Shown one piece after another: positions 6,635 to 62,793 of a DNA stretch of 64,000 bases (positions are counted from its first letter, which is position 1; each line of letters begins with the position of its first letter). The notes under the pieces are model-generated. The model searched no databases, was not told the DNA's origin, and saw only the letters and a list, made by a program, of their open reading frames with translations. Position numbers and translations under genes: made by a program. The stretch lies in the IMG/VR virus record IMGVR_UViG_3300024999_000029, positions 248,001-312,000 of that record; one strand, given 5' to 3'. This DNA comes from a virus.

Positions 6635-8218
6635 ATGGAAAACACAGTAAATTCAACAGTTACAATAGAAAAGCTACAAGAAGAAAATGAAATTCTTCAT
6701 CAGAAAAATTCACTTCTTCAACAAGAAAAAGCGGAACTAGCAGCCAAGCTAAATTGGTTTGAAGAACAGTTCCGTTTGAATCAACATTGGCGATTCGCAG
6801 CTTCTAGTGAAAAGACAGACCCTGAACAAATTTCACTTTTTAATGAGTCTGAGGTTGAAGCAAAGCCTGATGCGCCTGAACCTACTGTTGAAGAAATCAC
6901 ATATAAACGTCGTAAAAGCAAGGGCCACAGAGAAGAAATGCTTAAAGACCTTCCTATAGAGGTTATAGAGTACCGTCTTTTAGAAGATGAAAAAGTCTGC
7001 GATTGTTGCAGCGGCGAACTTCATGAAATGAGTATTGAGATAAGAAAAGAACTTAAAATTACGCCTGCACAAGTAAGCGTTGTAGAACATAGAAAATGTG
7101 TATATGCCTGCCGTAAATGTGAACAGAATGAAATAAAAACGCCTATCAAAACCGCATCAATGCCAAGGCCTGCAATACCAGGAAGTATAGCATCATCATC
7201 GGCAATAGCCCATATAATGACGGAAAAGTTTGTTAAAGGATTGCCACTTTACCGCCAAGAACAGGACTGGAAGCGTATGGGCGTGGAGATATCCCGCCAA
7301 ACAATGTCTAATTGGATGATCCAGAGTTCTGATAGGTGGCTACGACTAATTTATGAAAGAATGCATGAGCATCTTATGAAAAGGGACATCTTGCATGCCG
7401 ATGAAACCACATTGCAGGTACTGAATGAAGCTGGAAGGCCAGCTGATTCGACCTCATACATGTGGTTGTACCGAACTGGGCGAGAAGGATCTCCTATTGT
7501 ACTTTATGATTATCAAACAACTCGGGCAGGCAAGCATCCCAAAAAATTTCTCGAAGGTTTTAAAGGTTACTTGAATACAGATGGATATTCAGGCTATAAT
7601 GACATGTCTGGAATTATCAACGTTGGCTGTTGGGCTCATGCTCGACGCGGGTTTACTGATGCTTTAAAAGCAATGCCACCTAAAAAGGATGATAAACCCA
7701 CTGCCACCGAAGAAGGATTAGCATTTTGTAACAAGCTATTTGAAATAGAAAGAGGCTTGCATGATGTAACAGTAGAAGAAAGATATGAAGGCCGCCTAAA
7801 TAAAAGTCGTCCAATATTAGAAAAATTCAAGGAATGGCTTAAATATCAGCGCCCGAGAGTTACTCCGAAAAGTGCATTGGGTAAGGCAATTCAATACTGT
7901 CTAAACCAGTGGGATAAACTGGGGTCATTTATGTTGGATGGAAGGCTAGAAATTGATAACAATCGTAGTGAAAGGTCGATTAAACCTTTTGTAATCGGCA
8001 GAAAAAACTGGATATTCTCAAATAGTTCGAAAGGAGCTACTTCTAGTGCTACAATTTATAGCGTTGTTGAAACTGCTAAAGAAAACGGGTTGAATCCATT
8101 TATATACTTGATGTATCTTTTAGAAAGACTGCCCAATATGGACATCAAGGATAAAGATGCCTTGGATAAGCTTATGCCATGGTCGGATAGTTTACCTTCT
8201 GCTTGTAGAGTTAAATAA
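6635..8218 (+). CDS. tnpC: IS66 transposase TnpC
   Basis: A 527-residue DDE transposase. In order: a Leu-rich coiled coil (about 10-50), a zinc-binding region with CDCC at 122-125 and CRKC at 159-162, then the DDE core with D256 (HADETT), D316 (NTDGYSGY) and E446 (NNRSERSIKP). The GCWAHARRGF motif (331-340) is typical of the family. No frameshift or internal stop, so probably active. Confidence 0.95.
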   Translation: MENTVNSTVTIEKLQEENEILHQKNSLLQQEKAELAAKLNWFEEQFRLNQHWRFAASSEKTDPEQISLFNESEVEAKPDAPEPTVEEITYKRRKSKGHREEMLKDLPIEVIEYRLLEDEKVCDCCSGELHEMSIEIRKELKITPAQVSVVEHRKCVYACRKCEQNEIKTPIKTASMPRPAIPGSIASSSAIAHIMTEKFVKGLPLYRQEQDWKRMGVEISRQTMSNWMIQSSDRWLRLIYERMHEHLMKRDILHADETTLQVLNEAGRPADSTSYMWLYRTGREGSPIVLYDYQTTRAGKHPKKFLEGFKGYLNTDGYSGYNDMSGIINVGCWAHARRGFTDALKAMPPKKDDKPTATEEGLAFCNKLFEIERGLHDVTVEERYEGRLNKSRPILEKFKEWLKYQRPRVTPKSALGKAIQYCLNQWDKLGSFMLDGRLEIDNNRSERSIKPFVIGRKNWIFSNSSKGATSSATIYSVVETAKENGLNPFIYLMYLLERLPNMDIKDKDALDKLMPWSDSLPSACRVK

Positions 8219-38648: not shown

Positions 38649-39218
38649 TTGTTAGATAATATATCAGAAAAGTTTATAAATTGGCTTATAAAAATAAAAA
38701 TTCTTAAGCAAGAACAATACTCAGATTGGGATTATTGGTTTAGGATTTTTTTATTTAATTCTATAGTTGTTTTTTCTTTATTAACAATAAATATATTGTT
38801 AGGCAGTTGGATTCAGTTAATTATAATTAGTATAGTAGTAAATGTTTTACGAATGTATAGTGGAGGTTTCCATGCTCCACAAGGTAAATTAGAATATTGT
38901 GTTCTGTTAACAATTCCCTTAGTTACAATTGCATCTTTCATTGCAAAGTATCTTCAATTATATCCATTGCAATTATTCATGGTTGCAGTTTTTTTAGGTA
39001 TTCTTATAATCAGAAAAATTCCATTAATATCAGAAGAAGAAAAAGAAAATAAGTCAGATAAATATTTTAGAGATAAATATATTTATAATTTTTTAATATT
39101 TTACAGTATTAGTTGTTTGGCAATAATGATAGATTCAAATATATGCAATATTATTTCAAGCGCAATAAGCATGGGAATTATATTAGTTGCATTAGCAATG
39201 AAAAGTTCAACAAAATAA
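38649..39218 (+). CDS. agrB: AgrB-like peptide-processing membrane protease
   Basis: 189 residues, multi-pass. It carries the AgrB signature RMYSGGFHAP with R68, G72-G73 and H75, and C84 (LEYC), the catalytic His/Cys pair that cuts and cyclises AgrD into a signalling peptide. The His-Cys spacing is 9, against 7 in Staphylococcus aureus AgrB (from memory). No AgrD is recognised on either side. TTG start after AAGGATG. Phage agr genes are known from Clostridioides difficile phage phiCDHM1; here agrB stands with an AgrC-like fragment only. Confidence 0.85.
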   Translation: MLDNISEKFINWLIKIKILKQEQYSDWDYWFRIFLFNSIVVFSLLTINILLGSWIQLIIISIVVNVLRMYSGGFHAPQGKLEYCVLLTIPLVTIASFIAKYLQLYPLQLFMVAVFLGILIIRKIPLISEEEKENKSDKYFRDKYIYNFLIFYSISCLAIMIDSNICNIISSAISMGIILVALAMKSSTK

Positions 39219-43946: not shown

Positions 43947-44951
43947 ATGAGTAAAATAACTAGAGTTAAATACTTTACTGAAGATAGAAAATCTAAAATA
44001 AATCCTGATAATCTAAAATTATATGATAGGTATTTAAAGTCAAGTATTTTGAAAAATAAAGATGTCGAAACTACTACATATAAAGTTTATAAAAATTATA
44101 TGGATATGTTTTTAGTTTATTTGTCTGAGCAATGGGATAATGTTGGTCTATATGATCCAGAATTATTTAAAAACTCCATAGATGTAATCGAAGGATATAT
44201 GGGTTTTTGTCAGGAAGTTTTACATAATAATAAGAAAGTAATTAACACGAAGGTATCAACGATATCTTCTTTTTATTTATGGTCATTAAAACGTAGATTA
44301 ATTGATAGACATCCTTTCGATAAACAAGTAGATAGAATGAAAGGCGCTTCTGATGAGAAAATAATTAATTCTTACTTTCTAAATGATGAAGAAATAGAAA
44401 AAGTTTCTCAAGGAATAACTGAAGAAAATGGCTACGATATTATTGATAAATTGCTTTGGAATATTATGCTTGATTCCGCAAACAGAATAGGAGCAATCGA
44501 CAACTTAAAACTATCTAATTTAGACATAGAAAACTGTATGTTTACTGACATAAGAGAAAAAAGAGGATATAGAGTTGAAGTTGTAGTATCTGAGCCAACC
44601 ATGCAATTAATTGAGGAGTGGTTAGAAAAAAGAAAATCTATGGATAATTTAGAGGTAGATGCTTTATTTATCAGTAATTATGGTGGTGAGTATAGACAAA
44701 TGACAAAATCTACACTCCAAAATCGAATTAAAAACATAGGTAAGATATTAGGTTTGGAAGATTTTCATAGTCACTGTATTAGGAAAACTACTTTGAATAA
44801 TATTTATGACAAGACTGGGGATTTATCTTTAGCTGCCGAAATGGGAAATCATAAATCTACTGAAACTACTAGGAGTAGTTACATAAAGCCTAAATCAAAA
44901 ACAGAGATTAGAGACAAAATTAAAGAATTAATGGATAAAAAGAAAGAATAA
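43947..44951 (+). CDS. Tyrosine recombinase/integrase
   Basis: 334 residues. N-terminal SAM-like core-binding domain (about 40-130), then the catalytic domain with R180 (SANRIG), H276-x-x-R279 (HSHCIRK), H302 (GNHKS) and the nucleophile Y312 (RSSYIKP). All expected catalytic residues are present, so it is probably active. It lies in the tail module right before the tape measure gene, far from any usual integration module. Whether it integrates the phage, resolves dimers, or is a passenger is not known. No attachment site was identified. Confidence 0.85.
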   Translation: MSKITRVKYFTEDRKSKINPDNLKLYDRYLKSSILKNKDVETTTYKVYKNYMDMFLVYLSEQWDNVGLYDPELFKNSIDVIEGYMGFCQEVLHNNKKVINTKVSTISSFYLWSLKRRLIDRHPFDKQVDRMKGASDEKIINSYFLNDEEIEKVSQGITEENGYDIIDKLLWNIMLDSANRIGAIDNLKLSNLDIENCMFTDIREKRGYRVEVVVSEPTMQLIEEWLEKRKSMDNLEVDALFISNYGGEYRQMTKSTLQNRIKNIGKILGLEDFHSHCIRKTTLNNIYDKTGDLSLAAEMGNHKSTETTRSSYIKPKSKTEIRDKIKELMDKKKE

Positions 44952-46801: not shown

Positions 46802-47701
46802 ATGGCTTTTCATAAAATCAAAAAGCAAGATAGTTTTGCGCAATGGTTTTTAGATAATTTTGGTATTGATAAATTCAATACATTAATAAAACATGAGAAA
46901 AACTTAGAAGTAGGATTAGATATATGGATGATATTTAAAAGAAGCACAGCTAAAATATGGTTCTATTGCGAAAATAAAAATTATCATGAATTTTGTATGT
47001 CAGCATATAATTATTATAAAGGTCAAAGATGTAAATATTGTGCAAGAACAAAATATATTCATCCTAAGGATTCTTTAGGACAGTATATTATTGATAATTT
47101 TGGAGAAGATTTTTTAAATATAATATGGTCAAGTAAAAATATAAAATCTCCTTTTAAATATTCAATAGGAACTGAAAAAAAAGTATGGTTTTCATGTATT
47201 AATGAAATACATGAAGATAAATTAAGACAAGTAAAAAATGCGGTAAGAGGCGATTTTTATTGTCCTTATTGTATGGAAAATAATAATTCTTCAAAATTAC
47301 AAGAAAAGGTAAATCAATATATAAATTCATTAGGATATAAAATAAATACAGAATGTAATTGCACTATTATCCCTAAAAATCCAAAAACAAAATTTAATTT
47401 ACCTTTTGATAATGAAATAGAAGAATTAAAATTAATAATTGAAGTCAATGGACGCCAACACTATGATGAAATTAGCAGTAATAGTAAGTGGCTCAATGGG
47501 AAAACAGCTAAAGAATATTTACATAATAGAAAACTTAAAGACAGATATAAAAAAATCTTTGCGAAATCGCAAGGATATTTTTATTTGGAGATTCCTTATT
47601 GGTGTGATGACTATAAAGAATCTTGGAAAGATTTAATAAACAATAAAATAAATAATATTAAAAAGGGAACAACGACTGAGACGAATAGACTACATTTCTG
47701 A
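46802..47701 (+). CDS. Intron-encoded zinc-ribbon homing endonuclease
   Basis: 299 residues inside the group I intron. Two DUF4379-like units (SFAQWFLDNFGIDKF ... CKYCART; DSLGQYIIDNFGEDF ... CPYCMEN) then a PD-(D/E)XK nuclease (LPFDNEIEELKLIIEVNGRQ; IFAKSQGYFYLEIPYW). Its stop overlaps the catalytic core of the intron. Shortest of three related copies in the window; the C-terminus is nearest to that of 31350. Expected role: cutting intronless tape measure alleles to spread the intron. Confidence 0.8.
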   Translation: MAFHKIKKQDSFAQWFLDNFGIDKFNTLIKHEKNLEVGLDIWMIFKRSTAKIWFYCENKNYHEFCMSAYNYYKGQRCKYCARTKYIHPKDSLGQYIIDNFGEDFLNIIWSSKNIKSPFKYSIGTEKKVWFSCINEIHEDKLRQVKNAVRGDFYCPYCMENNNSSKLQEKVNQYINSLGYKINTECNCTIIPKNPKTKFNLPFDNEIEELKLIIEVNGRQHYDEISSNSKWLNGKTAKEYLHNRKLKDRYKKIFAKSQGYFYLEIPYWCDDYKESWKDLINNKINNIKKGTTTETNRLHF

Positions 47702-54358: not shown

Positions 54359-54595
54359 ATGGAAGTAATGATTAAATTAAAAATAAATGAAAAAATTGAA
54401 GAGTACAGAAAAGACACAGGAGCAACGAAAACTTGGATTTCTCATAAACTTGGAATGAGTAAACAAAGATTGTCCAATATCGGCAACGGGGACAATATTA
54501 CTTTAAAATTATTACTAAGAGTTGCAATATTTCTAAATTGTAAAACCGAAGATTTATACGAATATAGTATTGTTGACGATAATATTCAATCTTAG
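54359..54595 (+). CDS. XRE/Cro-type repressor
   Basis: 78 residues, essentially one helix-turn-helix domain (GATKTWISHKLGMSKQRLSN as helices 2-3). It lies downstream of the paired palindromes it may bind. No C-terminal dimer or cleavage domain, so it is Cro-like or a small regulator. ATG 54359 and ATG 54368 are both possible starts. Followed by the antirepressor operon. Confidence 0.75.
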   Translation: MEVMIKLKINEKIEEYRKDTGATKTWISHKLGMSKQRLSNIGNGDNITLKLLLRVAIFLNCKTEDLYEYSIVDDNIQS

Positions 54596-54616
54596 ATATT
54601 TTTGTATTTATTTTTG

Positions 54617-54645
54617 TTGACATTATTCAAACTCTTTTGTATACT
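54617..54645 (+). promoter_or_regulatory. Promoter of antirepressor operon
   Basis: TTGACA, 17-nt spacer, TATACT; near-consensus. A short AGGT/ACCT hairpin lies in the leader. Confidence 0.75.
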
Positions 54646-54701
54646 ATTAATGCAAGGTAGATTTTACCTTTTGTAAAAAATAATATATAGGAGGGTTTAT
54701 T

Positions 54702-55001
54702 GTGAGTAGATTAAAAACAATTACGATTAATGAATTTGAAAATGATTTTAGTAAATTAGAAGGAAAATCAGTTTGCGTAGATATCAAAGGGTCTATAAAT
54801 TTATTGAAGGTTATAACCAACTTCAACGTATGGCAAGACGAAAATAAAATTACATTGTTTGATCATGAAGATGAATCCGAAGTTAATATTAAAAAAGATG
54901 TTATTGATTGTATTGTAAAAGATAGACATGATACGAGTTTATTTTTAAAGAATGGTATGGAAGTTAATGTTTATGGGCAGGAGGACGTTGATCATGAATA
55001 A
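54702..55001 (+). CDS. Hypothetical protein of antirepressor operon
   Basis: 99 residues from GTG after AGGAGGG. Beta-rich, acidic (NEFENDFSKLEGKSVCVDIK). It overlaps the next gene by 8 nt, so it is co-translated with the antirepressor. No family recognised. Confidence 0.55.
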   Translation: MSRLKTITINEFENDFSKLEGKSVCVDIKGSINLLKVITNFNVWQDENKITLFDHEDESEVNIKKDVIDCIVKDRHDTSLFLKNGMEVNVYGQEDVDHE

Positions 55002-55776
55002 TTTAATGATAAAAGAAGTAAGTTTCAACGGAGATAGTTTACTGGCGGTTAAGAATAATTATGATAGTAAAATATATGTCGGAGTTAGTTATATCTGTAA
55101 TGGTATAGGGTTATCTGAAGGACAGATGAAAAATGAAAGAAAGAAAATACAGGAAGATTTAGTCCTTTCTAAAGGGGGACGAAATTTAATCCTCCCTACA
55201 AATGGTGGCAATCAAGAGGTTTTGGGTATAGAATTAGACTTCCTCCCTCTTTGGTTGGCTAAGATTTCTATCACTCCTAAAATGATAAAAGATAATCCTG
55301 ATGTAGTAAGCAAACTTGTTGATTATCAATTGAAAGCAAAAGACGTTTTAGCAAAAGCATTTATATATGGAGAATACAACTTGCCAACCACATATAAAGA
55401 AGCACTAATACAATTGCTTACTGTAGTTGAGCAAAAAGAAAAGATTGAAGAACAAAACAAAGTACTTATTCCAAAGGCTGAAGGATATGATGTATTAATT
55501 GCAGCAGATGGTTATCAAAACATGAATGAGGTAGCCAAGGCATTTTCAATTGGTCGCAATAAATTATTTAAATTACTAAGAAATGAAAAAATTCTCATGG
55601 ACAACAACGTACCTTATCAAAAATACATCAACAATAATTATTTTTTAGTTAAAGAGATATCAATTAGTCGTGGCAATTACTACTATAATGGCCTGCAAAC
55701 GTTTATTACAGCTAGAGGATTGGGCTTCTTAAAGGACTTGCTAAAAGAAAACGGCTACTTGCAAAGTATAGCCTAA
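54994..55776 (+). CDS. Phage antirepressor (P22_AR_N/KilAC type)
   Basis: 260 residues from the ATG after GCAGGAGGA; an in-frame ATG further upstream lies inside the previous gene and lacks a site. The N-terminal half (YVGVSYICNGIGLSEGQ; LDFLPLWLAKI; KLVDYQLKAKDVLAKAF) matches P22-type antirepressor N-terminal domains. The C-terminal half (YQNMNEVAKAFSIGRNKLFK, then TARGLGFLKDLL) is a KilAC-like DNA-binding domain. Expected role: relieving repression in the lysis-lysogeny switch. Confidence 0.8.
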   Translation: MNNLMIKEVSFNGDSLLAVKNNYDSKIYVGVSYICNGIGLSEGQMKNERKKIQEDLVLSKGGRNLILPTNGGNQEVLGIELDFLPLWLAKISITPKMIKDNPDVVSKLVDYQLKAKDVLAKAFIYGEYNLPTTYKEALIQLLTVVEQKEKIEEQNKVLIPKAEGYDVLIAADGYQNMNEVAKAFSIGRNKLFKLLRNEKILMDNNVPYQKYINNNYFLVKEISISRGNYYYNGLQTFITARGLGFLKDLLKENGYLQSIA

Positions 55777-56484: not shown

Positions 56485-56521
56485 TTATTGTGTTACAATT
56501 AGAGCATTTTTTTCAACATAC

Positions 56522-56549
56522 TTGACATATAACCATGCTATGGTATAAT
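56522..56549 (+). promoter_or_regulatory. Promoter of RNA-repeat/toxin locus 1
   Basis: TTGACA, 16-nt spacer, TATAAT. From the -35 through about 50 nt downstream it is nearly the same as the promoter region at 62013 (shared GCTATGGTATAATTAAATTA). Confidence 0.85.
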
Positions 56550-56555
56550 TAAATT

Positions 56556-56714
56556 AAGGTAGAATAAAATATCTTATGTAGTTTATATAATATCTGTCGG
56601 GATGGAGACGAAAAACTCATTCTCATTGGTCGGGATGAAGACCTAAAACTCATTCCCATTGCAGAGTGAACTGCTAAAAATCAGTAAAAGATGGCTTAGG
56701 TCATCTTTTTACTT
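56556..56714 (+). ncRNA. Candidate type III antitoxin RNA with tandem repeats
   Basis: Two exact-length 33-nt repeats, 56596-56628 and 56629-56661 (29 of 33 positions equal; both start GTCGGGATG and end CCATTG or TCATTG), then a degenerate third copy to about 56694. A terminator follows: GTAAAAGATG (56684-56693) pairs with CATCTTTTTAC, loop GCTTAGGT. Promoter, tandem RNA repeats, leaky terminator and then a toxin gene is type III toxin-antitoxin architecture. Transcript ends are estimated. Confidence 0.65.
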
Positions 56715-56730
56715 TTAATAGGAGATACAT

Positions 56731-57447
56731 ATGACAGAAGAAAAAAGTTTTAAAAAACGTGTAAAAGATGAAATTATAAATGGTGCAAAGATTTATAAGG
56801 AAAATTTTGTGGATTATGAATATCTTATATGTTCAGAAGCTTTTACTGCTAAAGAATTTTATACTATTGACGCAAAAGAAGATAATTATCAACATTTAAC
56901 TGGAGTTAATTCCTTAATTGCATCAAAAGATTTTTTTAACAAGTCATATGATAAAACTCTTCAAGAATCTGATTTTGATTTTAATAAGCGTGGGCAAAGT
57001 GAAAAATCAGTAAAAGGTTCTGTAAGAAGAAAAATTAGTGTTTTGCCTAATATTATACATATTTTTGAGAATGGTACATTAGTAGAAGAAAATCTTATAA
57101 AAAATCAAATTAAATGTTCTTTTGCAACCACCGATAAGAAATGTACATTAGGCTTTATTGACTTGACAAAATCAAGACCTATGTCTTTACTTAAAGGTGA
57201 CGAGATTGACAATACAAAAGCTAAAAACATTGACTTGCTTTTAAGGAAGCATATATCCAAAGATAAATTTAATGAAATTATAATTGGTGATTTTGTCGCA
57301 TTGCAAAAATATAGAGAAAACATAGAAGCGTTTTTAGATGAAAAAATTATAACGGAACTAGATAAAATGAAAGTACTCTTAGTCAAACAGGAATTACAAG
57401 AAGCTCAAGAGCAAGTTGCTTCGGGCGAATATGTAAGACCTCTCTGA
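56731..57447 (+). CDS. Candidate type III toxin, PBECR4-like
   Basis: 238 residues, ATG after AGGAGATA. The core EYLICSEAFTAKEFYTIDAK, NYQHLTGVNSLIASKDFF, SVRRKISVLPNIIHIF and KCSFATTDKKCTLGFID resembles PBECR4, a predicted nuclease domain of the barnase/EndoU/colicin E5/RelE group; this is recalled, not searched. H88 in the HLTGV segment, K121/R124/R125 and T158 are plausible active residues. It is longer than known type III toxins and unlike ToxN. Placement behind the repeat RNA suggests an RNase held by that RNA. Confidence 0.5.
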   Translation: MTEEKSFKKRVKDEIINGAKIYKENFVDYEYLICSEAFTAKEFYTIDAKEDNYQHLTGVNSLIASKDFFNKSYDKTLQESDFDFNKRGQSEKSVKGSVRRKISVLPNIIHIFENGTLVEENLIKNQIKCSFATTDKKCTLGFIDLTKSRPMSLLKGDEIDNTKAKNIDLLLRKHISKDKFNEIIIGDFVALQKYRENIEAFLDEKIITELDKMKVLLVKQELQEAQEQVASGEYVRPL

Positions 57448-57552: not shown

Positions 57553-60435
57553 ATGAATTTTACATATGATCTTTTTAATCGCATTGAAGCAATCCAAATA
57601 ATTCTCTGTAAAAATAACTTAGAAAAAGTTGGTGTCTTAGGTTTAGCATACGATAAAAAAGCAATATTGAGGCTTACGGACTTCTCGGAAATTTCTTTTA
57701 CATATCCTCAAAAAGTTGATAATAAAACAACTCAATATTATAATGATATTAAAACTAAAAAAATAATTTATGTTCCAGAGTTAGGTTATTTTAGACTTGA
57801 AAAAGTAAAGATTGAATCGGATGGCATCAGGGAGGTAAAAAATTGTGTTGGTTATTCTATTCAGATAGAATTAAAAAATAAACAATTAGTTAATTTCTCA
57901 GGTACGTATAAACTATATGACAGTTTAAAACCCCAAGAAAGTTTGATGGGTATTCTTATAGATTATTTTCCAAATTGGAGTATTAATGAGGTTGATGAGA
58001 ATCTTTGGAACATCTATCGTACATATGACATTTCAGAGAAGGATATCTATTCATTTTTAATGGATGATTTAATGACCTCATTTAATTGCGTGGTACTATT
58101 TGATATTATGAATCGTAAAATAAGTGTCAAAGAATTAGGAAATGTATCTAAAGAAACTGATATATATATTAGTTTTGATAATCTTATTAAGTCAGCAGAA
58201 ATTGAAGAATTGTCGGATGAAATTTGCAGTTCACTGAGGGTGAGGGGTGGATCGGAAAGTACTGACATCAGGAGTGTAAACCCGAATGGAACTGACACTA
58301 TTTATAATATAAACTATTATAAAACACTTGAGTATATGAGCCAGAGTCTAATAGATGCTTTAAATGCATATGAAATAAAATATAATAGTAATAAGACTAC
58401 ATATTCAACAAAATTAACACAAATTAAAGATAAGAATACTATTTTAATAACCAAAAATGGAGAATTAGATACACTCAATACTCAGATGGATGTGCTTGTA
58501 GCAACAAAAATGGTTAAAATACAAGGCGGTTTATCATTAACTGAAATAAATTCTCAAATATCTTCAAAACAATCTGAGATAAATACAAAAAATAATGAGA
58601 TAACGGGAATAAAAAATGAGATTGCGGTATTGCAAAGCAATCTAAATGATATAGTAGTTCAATTAAAATTCAGTAATAATTTTACAGTAGATCAATTAAA
58701 AGAGTTGGACAATTTTTTAATTGAATCCACATATACCGACTCAACATTTATAGTTGTAGACAGTATGACGGAAGTGCAGAAGCAAGAGAAAATGCAAGAA
58801 TTATATGATTATGCTAGTACTATATTAACACGACTGTCTCAACCAAGATTTTCTTTTAGTATTTCTAGTGCAAACTTTGTTTTTCTAAAAGAGTATGAAA
58901 GTTTTATGAAACAATTAGAATTAGGGTGTTTAATTAAAACTGAATTAAGAGAAGATTATATAGTAACACCAATTTTACTTGAAATTGAGATTGATTTTGA
59001 ACAGGATGATAATTTTAATCTTCGTTTCGGGAATAGATATAAGCTGAGTGACAACACGTTTACTCTAGCCGATATAATGAGTCAAACTACACAAAGTTCA
59101 AGCACTATAAGTTTTGAAAAGTATACTTATAAAGATTGGTATAAAAACAGTAAAGATTCGGTTAGTACGTTCATCGAAAGTGCCTTAAATGCTTCCGTAA
59201 ACAATATCAAATCCTCCGATAACCAGGATATCTTAATAGATCAGCATGGCATGCGCTGTAGACAATTCGATACAAGTACTAATGCATTTAAACCTGAACA
59301 ACTTTGGATAGTCAATAACATGATCTCGATGTCTAATGATGGATTTTCTAACACAGGTAAGATTGCAATCGGTAAAATTATAGATGATCGTTACGGAGAA
59401 ATTTGGGGTATAGCCGCACCTCTATTAGCAGGAAAAATTCTTACGGGCAACAACCTTCGCATAGAGAATTCAAAAAATAGTTTTGTACTGGATGAAAATG
59501 GTTGTGTGCTTACAGATGCAAAATTCACTCTCCAAACATCTAATGGAAAAGGCAAAATTATTTTAGACCCCACATTAGGTATAAGAATACAAGGAAATAC
59601 AGGGGGTACTTTTGTAGATAAATTTTATGTAGACTCTTTGGGGAATGTGAAATTTTCAGGAGAATTGTCAGCTGCTACTGGAACTTTCAGTGGAACTGTT
59701 CAAGCAGGTAGTATTATATCAAGTACTATCACTGGAGGAACAATCTCTATCGGTTCTAATTTTAGTGTTAATTCTAGTGGAATAATTACAGCTACAGGAG
59801 CTAATATTTCTGGTAATATAACTGCGAATGCTTTAACTGCAAATGCCACTATACAATCTCCAATTGTTACTGGTGGAACAATAAAAACTTCAAGCAGTGG
59901 ACAAAGAATTGAATTAAGTTCCAACAAACTACAAGCATTTGATTCAAATGGCATATCAAGAATAAAATTTGAGCCAGTAACTACTTCTGAAGTAAATTAT
60001 TATGAATTACAATTTCAAGGACAAAGTGGTAGTCAACAAGGAAGTATATCTGGAACAGATAATCAACTTAATATTGTTGGTCATAATGCACTTGTCTTAA
60101 ATGGTGGTAATGATAAGGTGTATTTTACTTCAGATGTCGATTTTCAAGGTAATATTGCTTATATTAATACGATTGAACCAGATGTTGCATTAGCTATTAA
60201 TGGAATATTAGGACATACTGGTTCTAGAATAGGATTTTTTGGAGTAGATCCAGCTATACAACAAACAGCTTCATTATTAGGCGATAAATTTACAACTGAA
60301 ACAGCAGACCTTACTTACGGCAGTATTGAGGTTTCCATGTTGACTCATTTAAAATCTGACGTAGGAAATTTGTATAATAAAGTTAATGGTATATTGACTA
60401 AATTGGCAGAATATGGATTATTTGAATTAGAATAA
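57553..60435 (+). CDS. Tail-associated tip protein (Tal)
   Basis: 960 residues. The N-terminal ~330 residues match the gp27-like hub domains of Tal/prophage endopeptidase-tail proteins (GVLGLAYDKKAILRLTDFSE; YDISEKDIYSFLMDDL; SSLRVRGGSE). A coiled coil follows (about 265-370), then a beta-rich shaft with collagen-like alternation (SAATGTFSGTVQAGSIISST) and a C-terminal module (790-870) that is duplicated in the next gene. The end is helical. No peptidase motif is seen, so it may be structural. Dit is the expected partner. Confidence 0.8.
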   Translation: MNFTYDLFNRIEAIQIILCKNNLEKVGVLGLAYDKKAILRLTDFSEISFTYPQKVDNKTTQYYNDIKTKKIIYVPELGYFRLEKVKIESDGIREVKNCVGYSIQIELKNKQLVNFSGTYKLYDSLKPQESLMGILIDYFPNWSINEVDENLWNIYRTYDISEKDIYSFLMDDLMTSFNCVVLFDIMNRKISVKELGNVSKETDIYISFDNLIKSAEIEELSDEICSSLRVRGGSESTDIRSVNPNGTDTIYNINYYKTLEYMSQSLIDALNAYEIKYNSNKTTYSTKLTQIKDKNTILITKNGELDTLNTQMDVLVATKMVKIQGGLSLTEINSQISSKQSEINTKNNEITGIKNEIAVLQSNLNDIVVQLKFSNNFTVDQLKELDNFLIESTYTDSTFIVVDSMTEVQKQEKMQELYDYASTILTRLSQPRFSFSISSANFVFLKEYESFMKQLELGCLIKTELREDYIVTPILLEIEIDFEQDDNFNLRFGNRYKLSDNTFTLADIMSQTTQSSSTISFEKYTYKDWYKNSKDSVSTFIESALNASVNNIKSSDNQDILIDQHGMRCRQFDTSTNAFKPEQLWIVNNMISMSNDGFSNTGKIAIGKIIDDRYGEIWGIAAPLLAGKILTGNNLRIENSKNSFVLDENGCVLTDAKFTLQTSNGKGKIILDPTLGIRIQGNTGGTFVDKFYVDSLGNVKFSGELSAATGTFSGTVQAGSIISSTITGGTISIGSNFSVNSSGIITATGANISGNITANALTANATIQSPIVTGGTIKTSSSGQRIELSSNKLQAFDSNGISRIKFEPVTTSEVNYYELQFQGQSGSQQGSISGTDNQLNIVGHNALVLNGGNDKVYFTSDVDFQGNIAYINTIEPDVALAINGILGHTGSRIGFFGVDPAIQQTASLLGDKFTTETADLTYGSIEVSMLTHLKSDVGNLYNKVNGILTKLAEYGLFELE
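59923..60152 (+). repeat. Tal C-terminal module, duplicated downstream (copy 1)
   Basis: 230 nt with near-identical DNA at 60670-60899. A second repeated piece, 60372-60425 (Tal end), recurs at 61089-61142. Both copies keep the same order, so a segment of the Tal 3' end was copied and then interrupted. Confidence 0.85.
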
Positions 60436-60465
60436 GGGATATTAATTAATATCCCTTTATTTTCA
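60434..60465 (+). terminator. Terminator after Tal
   Basis: Perfect 10-bp stem AAGGGATATT / AATATCCCTT, loop AATT, then TATTTTC. Overlaps the Tal stop. Confidence 0.8.
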
Positions 60466-60496
60466 TTAATTATATTATATTTTTATTTATGAAATA

Positions 60497-60524
60497 TTGA
60501 CAAATCTACCCAATGTGGTATACT
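60497..60524 (+). promoter_or_regulatory. Promoter of secreted chimera
   Basis: TTGACA, 16-nt spacer, TATACT, 44 nt before the ATG. Confidence 0.75.
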
Positions 60525-60567
60525 AAAAGTATAATAAAATTATATTTAATAATATTGGAGGTATATC

Positions 60568-61083
60568 ATGAAAAAATATAAACAATTTATCATAGGACTT
60601 TTACTTGGTTCATTATTATTTTCCACACTGGGAGTATTCGCTGCCAATGAATTAATAAATATTAAATTAAACAAACTACAAGCATTTGATTCAAATGGCA
60701 TATCAAGAATAAAATTTGAGCCAGTAACTACTTCTGGAGTAAATTACTATGAATTGCAGTTCTTTGGTCAAGGTGGGAATGAAGAAGGGATAATATCTGG
60801 AACTAATGGGAAACTTAATATTGTAGGTCGTAACAAACTTATTTTAGATGGTGGTAATGATAAGGTGTATTTTACTTCAGATGTCGATTTTCAAGGTAAG
60901 AACCTTAACTTTAGTAATGCAACGGTTAATGGATTAGACACAAATTCACATCTTCAAAAAAATCACAATCATGGAATTAAACCAGGAACAAAATTGGCTA
61001 TTACTGATGGACGAGGGAAAATTACAGGATATGTTGAATGGACTGAGGATGGAGGTTTTACTCATTCTCATAATATAGAATAA
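60568..61083 (+). CDS. Secreted protein with duplicated Tal module
   Basis: 171 residues. Signal peptide 1-26 (MKKYKQFIIGLLLGSLLFST, cleavage near VFAANE). Residues 34-112 copy the Tal C-terminal module (LQAFDSNGISRIKFEPVTTS, VYFTSDVDFQG). The C-terminal ~45 residues are His/Gly-rich (NHNHGIKPG; FTHSHNIE) and not from Tal. It has its own promoter and a strong AATATTGGAGG site. A tail-tip domain exported by the lysogen could block the phage receptor (inference); otherwise a surface protein of unknown role. Confidence 0.7.
   Translation: MKKYKQFIIGLLLGSLLFSTLGVFAANELINIKLNKLQAFDSNGISRIKFEPVTTSGVNYYELQFFGQGGNEEGIISGTNGKLNIVGRNKLILDGGNDKVYFTSDVDFQGKNLNFSNATVNGLDTNSHLQKNHNHGIKPGTKLAITDGRGKITGYVEWTEDGGFTHSHNIE
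60670..60899 (+). repeat. Tal C-terminal module (copy 2)
   Basis: Counterpart of 59923-60152, same length. The few differences cluster in the middle (the GQSGSQQGS region). The linked 54-nt piece at 61089-61142 lies just past the stop of the chimera and is now non-coding. Confidence 0.85.
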
Positions 61084-61152
61084 TTGACTATAATAAAGTT
61101 AATGGTATATTGACTAAATTGGCAGAATATGGATTATTTGAAATAGTTGATT

Positions 61153-61180
61153 AATAGGGGTGTTGAATATCCCCTATTTT
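61153..61180. terminator. Bidirectional terminator
   Basis: Perfect 8-bp stem AATAGGGG / CCCCTATT, with T-run on the + side. The downstream arm overlaps the stop of the - strand gene, so it serves both converging genes. Confidence 0.75.
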
Positions 61181-61923
61181 AATAATGGTAAAACATTTTG
61201 AGTATAATAATTATATGGGATATAATAATGCAGAACATCTTCAGAATCAGTATATGTTGTAAATGGTATGTTATTTATTAATATATCTCCTTCTTGTATT
61301 TTATGAATAGCTTTGGCTTTAGAAGCCGACCTCATACTCTTATCTTTTTTTATATTTTCTAATTGTGTTAAATCTTTTTTATACAAACTCAAAGTATCAT
61401 TATCTTTATTTATTTTAGTGGTATATCCTACAGCAAGTTGTTTACCGCTATATTTATCAGGCTTAACATATTGGTTATATTTACTTCCTATATACCTAGT
61501 AGGCACATACTGACCGCCATCAATATACACTATGGGTAATCCATCAGAAGTTTTCTCAACATTTTTATTACGAGATTGTTCATAAGGATTAAGTGTTTTA
61601 ATATCTACTTTATCAATTTGTTCAGTTTCATAAACACCTTGAGTTACAGTAATATTCTCAGTTACACGAGCTATTTCTATATGACCGTTGGTTTGATTAA
61701 AAACAACTGGAATTTTTAAAACTTTACCAATATCTCCCAATTTCATATAGGTATAATCATTTATATTATAACCTTCAACGGCTACTTGCTCTCCATTAAA
61801 GAATATAGGATATTGATTTAGTTTGATAGTCAGTCCTAATTCATTAGTGGCAAATACTCCCAGAGTAGAAAATAATACTGAACCAATTAAAAATCCTACA
61901 GTAAATTGCTTATATTTTTTCAT
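61174..61923 (-). CDS. Secreted stalk-domain (copper amine oxidase N-like) protein
   Basis: 249 residues on the minus strand, the only gene so oriented. The start at 61923 has GGAGG 7 nt upstream; an in-frame ATG at 62019 lies upstream of its promoter. Signal peptide MKKYKQFTVGFLIGSVLFST, nearly the same as that of the 60568 protein. Residues about 32-85 (LNQYPIFFNGEQVAVEGYNI, YMKLGDIGKVLKIPV) match the stalk domain of the copper amine oxidase N-terminal-like family in Firmicutes exoproteins. C-terminal part is Lys/Tyr-rich. Likely lysogenic-conversion cargo. Confidence 0.7.
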   Translation of the reverse strand: MKKYKQFTVGFLIGSVLFSTLGVFATNELGLTIKLNQYPIFFNGEQVAVEGYNINDYTYMKLGDIGKVLKIPVVFNQTNGHIEIARVTENITVTQGVYETEQIDKVDIKTLNPYEQSRNKNVEKTSDGLPIVYIDGGQYVPTRYIGSKYNQYVKPDKYSGKQLAVGYTTKINKDNDTLSLYKKDLTQLENIKKDKSMRSASKAKAIHKIQEGDILINNIPFTTYTDSEDVLHYYIPYNYYTQNVLPLLK

Positions 61924-61966
61924 AATAACCTCCAAAAATTTAATAATTATAGTTTGTTTTATTTTC

Positions 61967-61994
61967 AGTATATCATACTGGTCGAATTTGTCAA
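61967..61994 (-). promoter_or_regulatory. Promoter of secreted stalk-domain gene
   Basis: Minus-strand TTGACA (61989-61994), 16-nt spacer, TATACT (61967-61972). It stands back to back with the promoter of RNA-repeat locus 2. Confidence 0.75.
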
Positions 61995-62012
61995 TATTTT
62001 TGTCGTTAAGAC

Positions 62013-62040
62013 TTGACATGGTATTATGCTATGGTATAAT
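62013..62040 (+). promoter_or_regulatory. Promoter of RNA-repeat/toxin locus 2
   Basis: TTGACA, 16-nt spacer, TATAAT. Shares more than 20 consecutive bases around and after the -10 with the locus 1 promoter. Confidence 0.85.
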
Positions 62041-62046
62041 TAAATT

Positions 62047-62254
62047 AAGGACAGAATAAAATAACTTGTAATAGGAAACCCCTTGCCTGATAGTAGGGAT
62101 CTGAACAAACACGCTTCACAATGTGCGGCAAAGAAACATTGTTAATACAAAAGTGCTTCACAATGTGCATTAAATTACATTGTTGATACAAACACGCTTC
62201 ACAATGTGCGGCAAAGAAACATTGTAAGAAAGCCTTTTATGGGCTTTCTTTTAT
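62047..62254 (+). ncRNA. Type III antitoxin RNA with tandem repeats
   Basis: Three tandem repeats starting at 62106, 62148 and 62189 (units of 42 and 41 nt, the third running to about 62225), each built around GCTTCACAATGTGC and ending in ACATTGT. The first and third are almost the same and the second is diverged. The last repeat runs into a terminator, AAGAAAGCC / GGCTTTCTT (62226-62250). Unit length and copy number fit known type III antitoxins. Transcript ends are estimated. Confidence 0.8.
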
Positions 62255-62265
62255 ATGAGGTACAA

Positions 62266-62793
62266 ATGAAAAAGAATGCCATATATTTTGGAAATAAAGA
62301 CATATATCAAAAAATTAGAAATGCTGGTGGAGTATGGAATGATTCTAAAGATAGACCTATTGTATGCTTGCTAGAATCAACAGAAACAATAGGCTTGTAT
62401 TGGGCTATTCCAGTGGGGAATTGGGAGCATCGAGATCAGACAGCTAAAAATAGAATTGAGAAATATGTGTCTTACCCAAAATCAGATTTAAGGTCGTGTT
62501 ACTATCATGTCGGCAAGACTAATGAAAAATCAATTTTCTTTATAAGTGATGTTATCCCTATAGCTAAAAAATACATAGATAGAGAATATAAAGGGTTTGA
62601 CAAAAAGTTGTATGTAATTAAAAATAAAAAACTCATACAATCTTTAGAAGAAAAATTAACAAGGATTTTAGCTTTTGAAGCTACAAATAATAATTATTTT
62701 AGACAACGTATTACTGATGTTAAACATGTGTTGATTGAAGAATTAGAACTAGAAAATACATTCGGAAAAGTTGCACCAATCAAAGAGGAATAA
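62266..62793 (+). CDS. Type III toxin, ToxN/CptN/TenpN superfamily
   Basis: 175 residues from the ATG after GAGG, just past the terminator of the repeat RNA; an upstream in-frame ATG (62206) lies inside the repeats. GGVWNDSKDRPIVCLLES, YWAIPVGNWEHRDQTAKNRI, YHVGKTNEKSIFFISDVIPI and KKYIDREY fit the type III endoribonuclease superfamily, probably the CptN branch (recalled). The partner RNA repeats would bind and inhibit it. Such systems stabilise replicons or abort phage infection; here it would protect the lysogen. Confidence 0.75.
   Translation: MKKNAIYFGNKDIYQKIRNAGGVWNDSKDRPIVCLLESTETIGLYWAIPVGNWEHRDQTAKNRIEKYVSYPKSDLRSCYYHVGKTNEKSIFFISDVIPIAKKYIDREYKGFDKKLYVIKNKKLIQSLEEKLTRILAFEATNNNYFRQRITDVKHVLIEELELENTFGKVAPIKEE

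Follow-up and report, generated by a model that had tools for sequence, protein, structure and literature searches.

The 3′ end of a phage gene for a tail-tip protein (Tal) is followed, in the DNA studied here, by a chimeric open reading frame (ORF) in which an export leader is joined to a tail-tip module. On balance, this ORF seems to be a by-product of tail-tip exchange, in which a displaced tip (named after its HNHG motif) landed behind a moron-type export leader. The window, that is, the whole stretch of DNA analysed (64,000 nt), corresponds to positions 248001-312000 of a metagenomic contig of 349,050 nt.

The mosaic Tal 3′ end and the chimeric ORF

The features of the locus, in window coordinates, are the following:

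57553-60435, + strand: Tal / tail-tip protein, 960 aa, with a GFFG-type tip at its end (phrog_6211 minor tail protein, E 1.9e-64)
59923-59989, + strand: copy 1 of the left identity island, 67 nt that recur unchanged (100%) at 60670-60736
59990-60100, + strand: copy 1 of the divergent core, 111 nt with 31 differences from copy 2 (dN/dS about 0.31)
60101-60152, + strand: copy 1 of the right identity island, 52 nt that recur unchanged (100%) at 60848-60899
60153-60372, + strand: the present tip of Tal (type 1, GFFG), with homology to the end of the tail gene in loci L015/L016
60373-60430, + strand: block B, at the end of Tal, which shares 57 of its 58 nt with 61089-61146
60434-60457: terminator T1, formed by a perfect palindrome of 24 nt with a T-rich tail behind it
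60497-60524, + strand: the chimera's promoter, TTGACA-16-TATACT, which agrees with the consensus at 11 of 12 positions and shares homology with the promoter of the stalk gene
60557-60561, + strand: ribosome-binding site GGAGG, 6 nt ahead of the ATG
60568-61083, + strand: chimeric ORF for a putatively exported protein of 171 aa, made of the leader, the Tal core block and the HNHG tip
60568-60642, + strand: residues 1-25 of the chimera, predicted to be a signal peptide, with homology to the leader of the stalk gene
60670-60736, + strand: left identity island, copy 2, with the leader/Tal joint at its start
60737-60847, + strand: divergent core, copy 2
60848-60899, + strand: right identity island, copy 2
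60900-61080, + strand: tip type 2 (HNHGI...GTKLAI...HSHN), a tail-protein tip missing from the phage's own Tal
61089-61146, + strand: block B′, relic of a Tal end, past the chimera's stop and in another frame
61157-61173, + strand: terminator T2, at the ancestral Tal/stalk junction
61174-61923, − strand: putatively exported stalk (Cu_amine_oxidN1-like) gene, 249 aa, convergent to Tal (weak Pfam match, E 0.0044)
61967-61994, − strand: stalk gene promoter TTGACA-16-TATACT

The Tal protein matches tail proteins of Bacillus and Lactococcus phages in tblastn. Two pieces of its 3′ end recur downstream in the same order, just as the initial annotation had described: 59923-60152 returns 747 nt downstream at 60670-60899 (230 nt, 87% identity), and block B returns as the 58-nt block B′. 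The lengths and identities of both repeats are far beyond chance. Of the 32 differences between the copies, 31 are concentrated within the core of 111 nt (log10 p about −10), where the copies are only about 72% identical with a dS of 0.80, and the exact-identity islands of 67, 52 and 54 nt contain no synonymous difference at all. This disparity in synonymous sites indicates that the cores are two old Tal alleles, which appear to have evolved under purifying selection before coming together, and the islands point to recent exchange. A simple tandem duplication is rejected by the same succession of island, core and island. A diversity-generating retroelement is rejected as well, since the differences are not adenine-directed: some are T/C and T/G changes in which neither copy has an A at the position (for example, TAT/TAC and GGT/GGG), and synonymous sites are among them. 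Because block B′ lies past the chimera's stop in another frame, it is fair to call it a fossil, as had been proposed.

The N-terminus of the chimera, MKKYKQFIIGLLLGSLLFSTLGVFA followed after the predicted cleavage site by AN, consists of a basic start, a hydrophobic core and a V-x-A cleavage site, with no Cys, and among the 106 window ORFs of at least 60 aa it is the most hydrophobic of those with a basic start. Composition, hydropathy and leader homology make the claimed fusion of the first piece behind a signal peptide convincing, and the promoter claimed for it is indeed present ahead of the ORF in near-consensus form. With this promoter and the flanking terminators (60434-60457 and 61157-61173), the unit is organized as a phage moron, and its expression is predicted. 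The leader and the Tal sequence are joined in frame, with about 3 nt (AAC) in common. These signals suggest that the chimera is probably transcribed and secreted as a small single tail-tip module. The view of the initial annotation that a copy of the phage's own tail tip would be exported is not supported: only about 77 residues (62 of them identical) are shared with Tal, the terminal tip differs, and the last 60 or so residues of the chimera are absent from Tal. The intactness of the ORF since the fusion says little, because only about 0.07 stop mutations are expected from one difference in 176 island sites.

Origins of the leader and of the two tips

The promoter and leader of the chimera give a 163-nt inverted match to the start of the neighbouring stalk gene (76-80% identity), and they can also be aligned with the stalk-gene starts of loci L005 and L015. 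They belong, to judge from this homology, to the stalk gene family and were apparently borrowed from it. A recent copy of the neighbouring gene is rejected as the source, since the leaders are 76-80% identical and the islands 100%. In Pfam, the chimera has no match to the stalk domain PF07833, and its homology to the stalk protein ends at about residue 34, at the leader. Stalk genes that are convergent to, and abut, Tal or a tip-carrying tail gene are found in the window, in L005 (8944-9561), in L015/L016 (L015 5267-5965) and in L047 (6001-6609), an otherwise unrelated phage; the relatives in L015 and L047 exceed the Pfam cut-off. These Tal-adjacent genes for exported proteins are a candidate family of surface-acting morons.

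In L015, 26 nt separate the stop of the tail gene from that of the stalk gene, and the segment 5178-5998 is colinear with window 61089-61955, which comprises block B′, the terminator and the stalk gene. The alignment identifies L015 as an example of the ancestral Tal/stalk junction. It follows from this colinearity that two Tal ends are present in the window, separated by the promoter, the leader, core copy 2 and the HNHG tip. Window 60473-60671 aligns inverted with the stalk promoter and leader of L015, and window 60195-60483, which overlaps the GFFG tip, is 80% identical at the nucleotide level to L015 5000-5292.

The HNHG tip was traced with a profile built from the end of the chimera and a Paenibacillus prophage protein, which found 11 loci. 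The loci are not all independent: one Paenibacillus element is present twice, as L035 and L039, having come from two collections; L034 and L038 are seemingly a similar case; and the protein encoded by L041 is the same as that of L042. In 11 of 11 loci, the module is part of a leaderless tail-module protein; in eight loci it forms the C-terminus, and in the other three it falls in the last quarter of the protein. The aligned motif HNHGI..GT.LA....G.V.W...H.H is conserved and is C-terminal in the chimera too, where it stands outside any virion protein. Pfam Prophage_tail domains are present in the tail protein of L036, the one checked; the chimera has no Pfam match and lacks these domains, only the tip being present.

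The locus probably arose by the following route. The resident Tal probably once ended in a core block and the HNHG tip, beside a convergent exported stalk gene, and an even older Tal end (B′) would have remained behind its stop. An incoming block, carrying another core allele, the GFFG tip with its terminator and a stalk-type promoter and leader, would have entered the Tal 3′ end via short stretches of identity, one joint sharing about 3 nt. In this way, Tal would have acquired its new GFFG tip, and the old HNHG tip would have ended in frame behind the leader, presumably with no selected function. No sampled relative has a + strand stalk gene after Tal, as the donor requires, and this counts against the exchange. 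So does the intact ORF with its strong expression signals, which is what a functional gene would have, but a recent joint would likely be intact anyway.

Alternative readings and the status of the contig

In the initial annotation, the exported module was seen as a receptor mask or decoy: the secreted tip would bind the surface receptor and exclude phages with the same tip. The complete signals for expression and export, the body made of a genuine tail-tip module, and a leader and position typical of the exported genes that recur beside Tal, a place in which an exclusion gene would be unsurprising, are in agreement with such a role. Lysogeny is plausible given the large serine and tyrosine recombinases of the phage, the only genes from which it is deduced. 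However, the exported tip is not that of the present Tal and, as HNHG differs from GFFG, it should imitate another specificity, or an earlier one. A scan of the chimera for a lipobox Cys or a second hydrophobic segment found neither, and no wall anchor is visible on reading the sequence. AlphaFold gives a poor single-module model of the mature chimera (pLDDT 51), and both this and the HNHG tip alone (pLDDT 67) are too poor for a fold search; a sequence search of the PDB with the chimera returned nothing significant. There is, moreover, no sign of selection after the fusion, and export of such a module, looked for in phage records, viral contigs, genome contigs and the 11 tip loci, is absent in every relative found. 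Superinfection exclusion by the chimera is possible but unsupported, and the mask as formulated is unlikely. Its variant of a diffusible secreted blocker, by which the lysogen would exclude phages carrying the tip that its own virion gave up, is quite improbable.

The spacing of the copies allows the downstream copy to be regarded as a reserve, storing an alternative tip that recombination via the 67- and 52-nt islands would restore to Tal. The 747 nt between the copies are a multiple of 3, and the computed deletion removes exactly this length, giving an in-frame Tal of 927 aa with the HNHG tip. The islands look long enough for homologous recombination, and phage TP-J34 is a known case in which repeats in a receptor-binding gene are lost by recombination (PMC3952083). 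Against this stand the lack of the switched variant in any collection searched, the lack of a RecT or RecA match in the phage record, and the nature of the deletion, which is one-way and would not make a cycling switch. A tip reserve, to which the leader would be incidental, is unlikely.

A third reading attributes the locus to an assembly artefact, by which variants of the Tal 3′ end from different strains would have been merged into a single metagenomic contig. The record has two terminase genes (record positions 93513-95051 and 250098-251906), two sets of similar early-gene blocks and two Tal loci, L005 being its second tail locus. Its first 153.9 kb are 100% identical to G001 (154,102 bp) in the stretches sampled, namely, both ends and an intervening stretch of 10 kb. 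Taken together, the two terminases, the two early-gene sets and the G001 match suggest that the record may consist of two related phage genomes end to end, joined naturally or by the assembler. The repeated islands of 52-67 nt are also of the size of assembly words. The sequence shared at the leader/Tal joint, about 3 nt, is too short for a word-based misjoin, the joint is in frame, and the islands are present twice on one contig; an artefact is quite improbable. The arrangement rests on a single metagenomic contig. Among the viral contigs searched, no independent contig confirming the locus was found, the leader/Tal junction and the right-island pattern were absent, and the chimera was matched by its leader alone, within stalk genes. 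Searches for the chimera found nothing in phage records or genome contigs and just a weak match to the tip in plasmids, and a DNA search of phages returned none. No second genome with the same arrangement, or with the proposed precursor, was found in these collections, searches of which may omit own-genome and near-identical records.

Several other elements were observed in the window. A tyrosine recombinase gene (43947-44951) lies between tail genes, a homing-endonuclease-like gene (46802-47701) separates two parts of the tape measure gene, and the head region contains a transposase-like ORF (6635-8218). A gene of the AgrB family (38649-39218, Pfam E 4.1e-19) is a quorum-sensing component carried by the phage. 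At 62011-62793, a consensus promoter precedes three RNA repeats of about 41 nt, which match Rfam Fusobacteriales-1 (RF02920, 93 bits), and a 174-aa protein (phrog_33519) without a ToxN match, a layout that resembles type III toxin-antitoxin systems; a protein near the L015 tail locus has weak ToxN/AbiQ matches. At 56520-57447, a similar promoter and two 33-nt repeats stand ahead of a gene resembling PBECR4 nucleases (E 3.2e-14); this may be another pair of RNA repeats and toxin. A three-gene cassette (HTH, a protein of about 100 aa and an antirepressor-like protein) occurs near each tail-tip locus, in the window (54359-55776), L005 and L015, with about 73% nucleotide identity across the longest stretches.

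Significance and comparison with known systems

With tail-tip exchange as the preferred reading, the locus appears to capture such an exchange with the outgoing tip still present, and the chimera illustrates a route from a virion part to a secreted protein. If made and able to bind cells, its product would represent an adsorption blocker of a new type. The convergent pair of Tal and exported stalk gene, recurrent in four tail loci, is a testable candidate for a surface-protein family. The stalk genes of these pairs have a promoter, a ribosome-binding site and a signal peptide homologous to those of the chimera, which differs from them in having a tail-tip module as its body instead of the stalk domain and in lying on the Tal strand. 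The Paenibacillus and other Prophage_tail-like (PF06605) proteins of L032-L042 have the same terminal module and a similar preceding core, but their tips sit in longer leaderless virion proteins, whereas that of the chimera follows a signal peptide in a protein of 171 aa.

None of the titles and abstracts listed from the open-licence literature describes an exclusion factor that is an exported copy of a tail tip. Among known exported exclusion proteins, Ltp of TP-J34 is a lipoprotein with an anchor and acts on the tape measure protein (PMC3952083); another, Cor of phi80/N15, inactivates FhuA (PMC11436027). They share with the chimera a small size, a phage origin, export and action at the surface, export being predicted and surface action hypothetical for the chimera; neither is described as a tail-tip copy, and the analysis brought to light no relation to the chimera in sequence. 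A further parallel is orf48 of TP-J34, a phage of Streptococcus thermophilus, which encodes the receptor-binding protein and carries direct in-frame repeats of 912 bp; these include imported tip DNA resembling that of another phage and are lost by recombination (PMC3952083). Both cases present an in-frame repeat in a tail adsorption gene, with imported tip DNA, that recombination can remove. The TP-J34 repeats stay within one ORF and damage tail assembly, whereas the copy in the chimera lies outside Tal, behind a leader.
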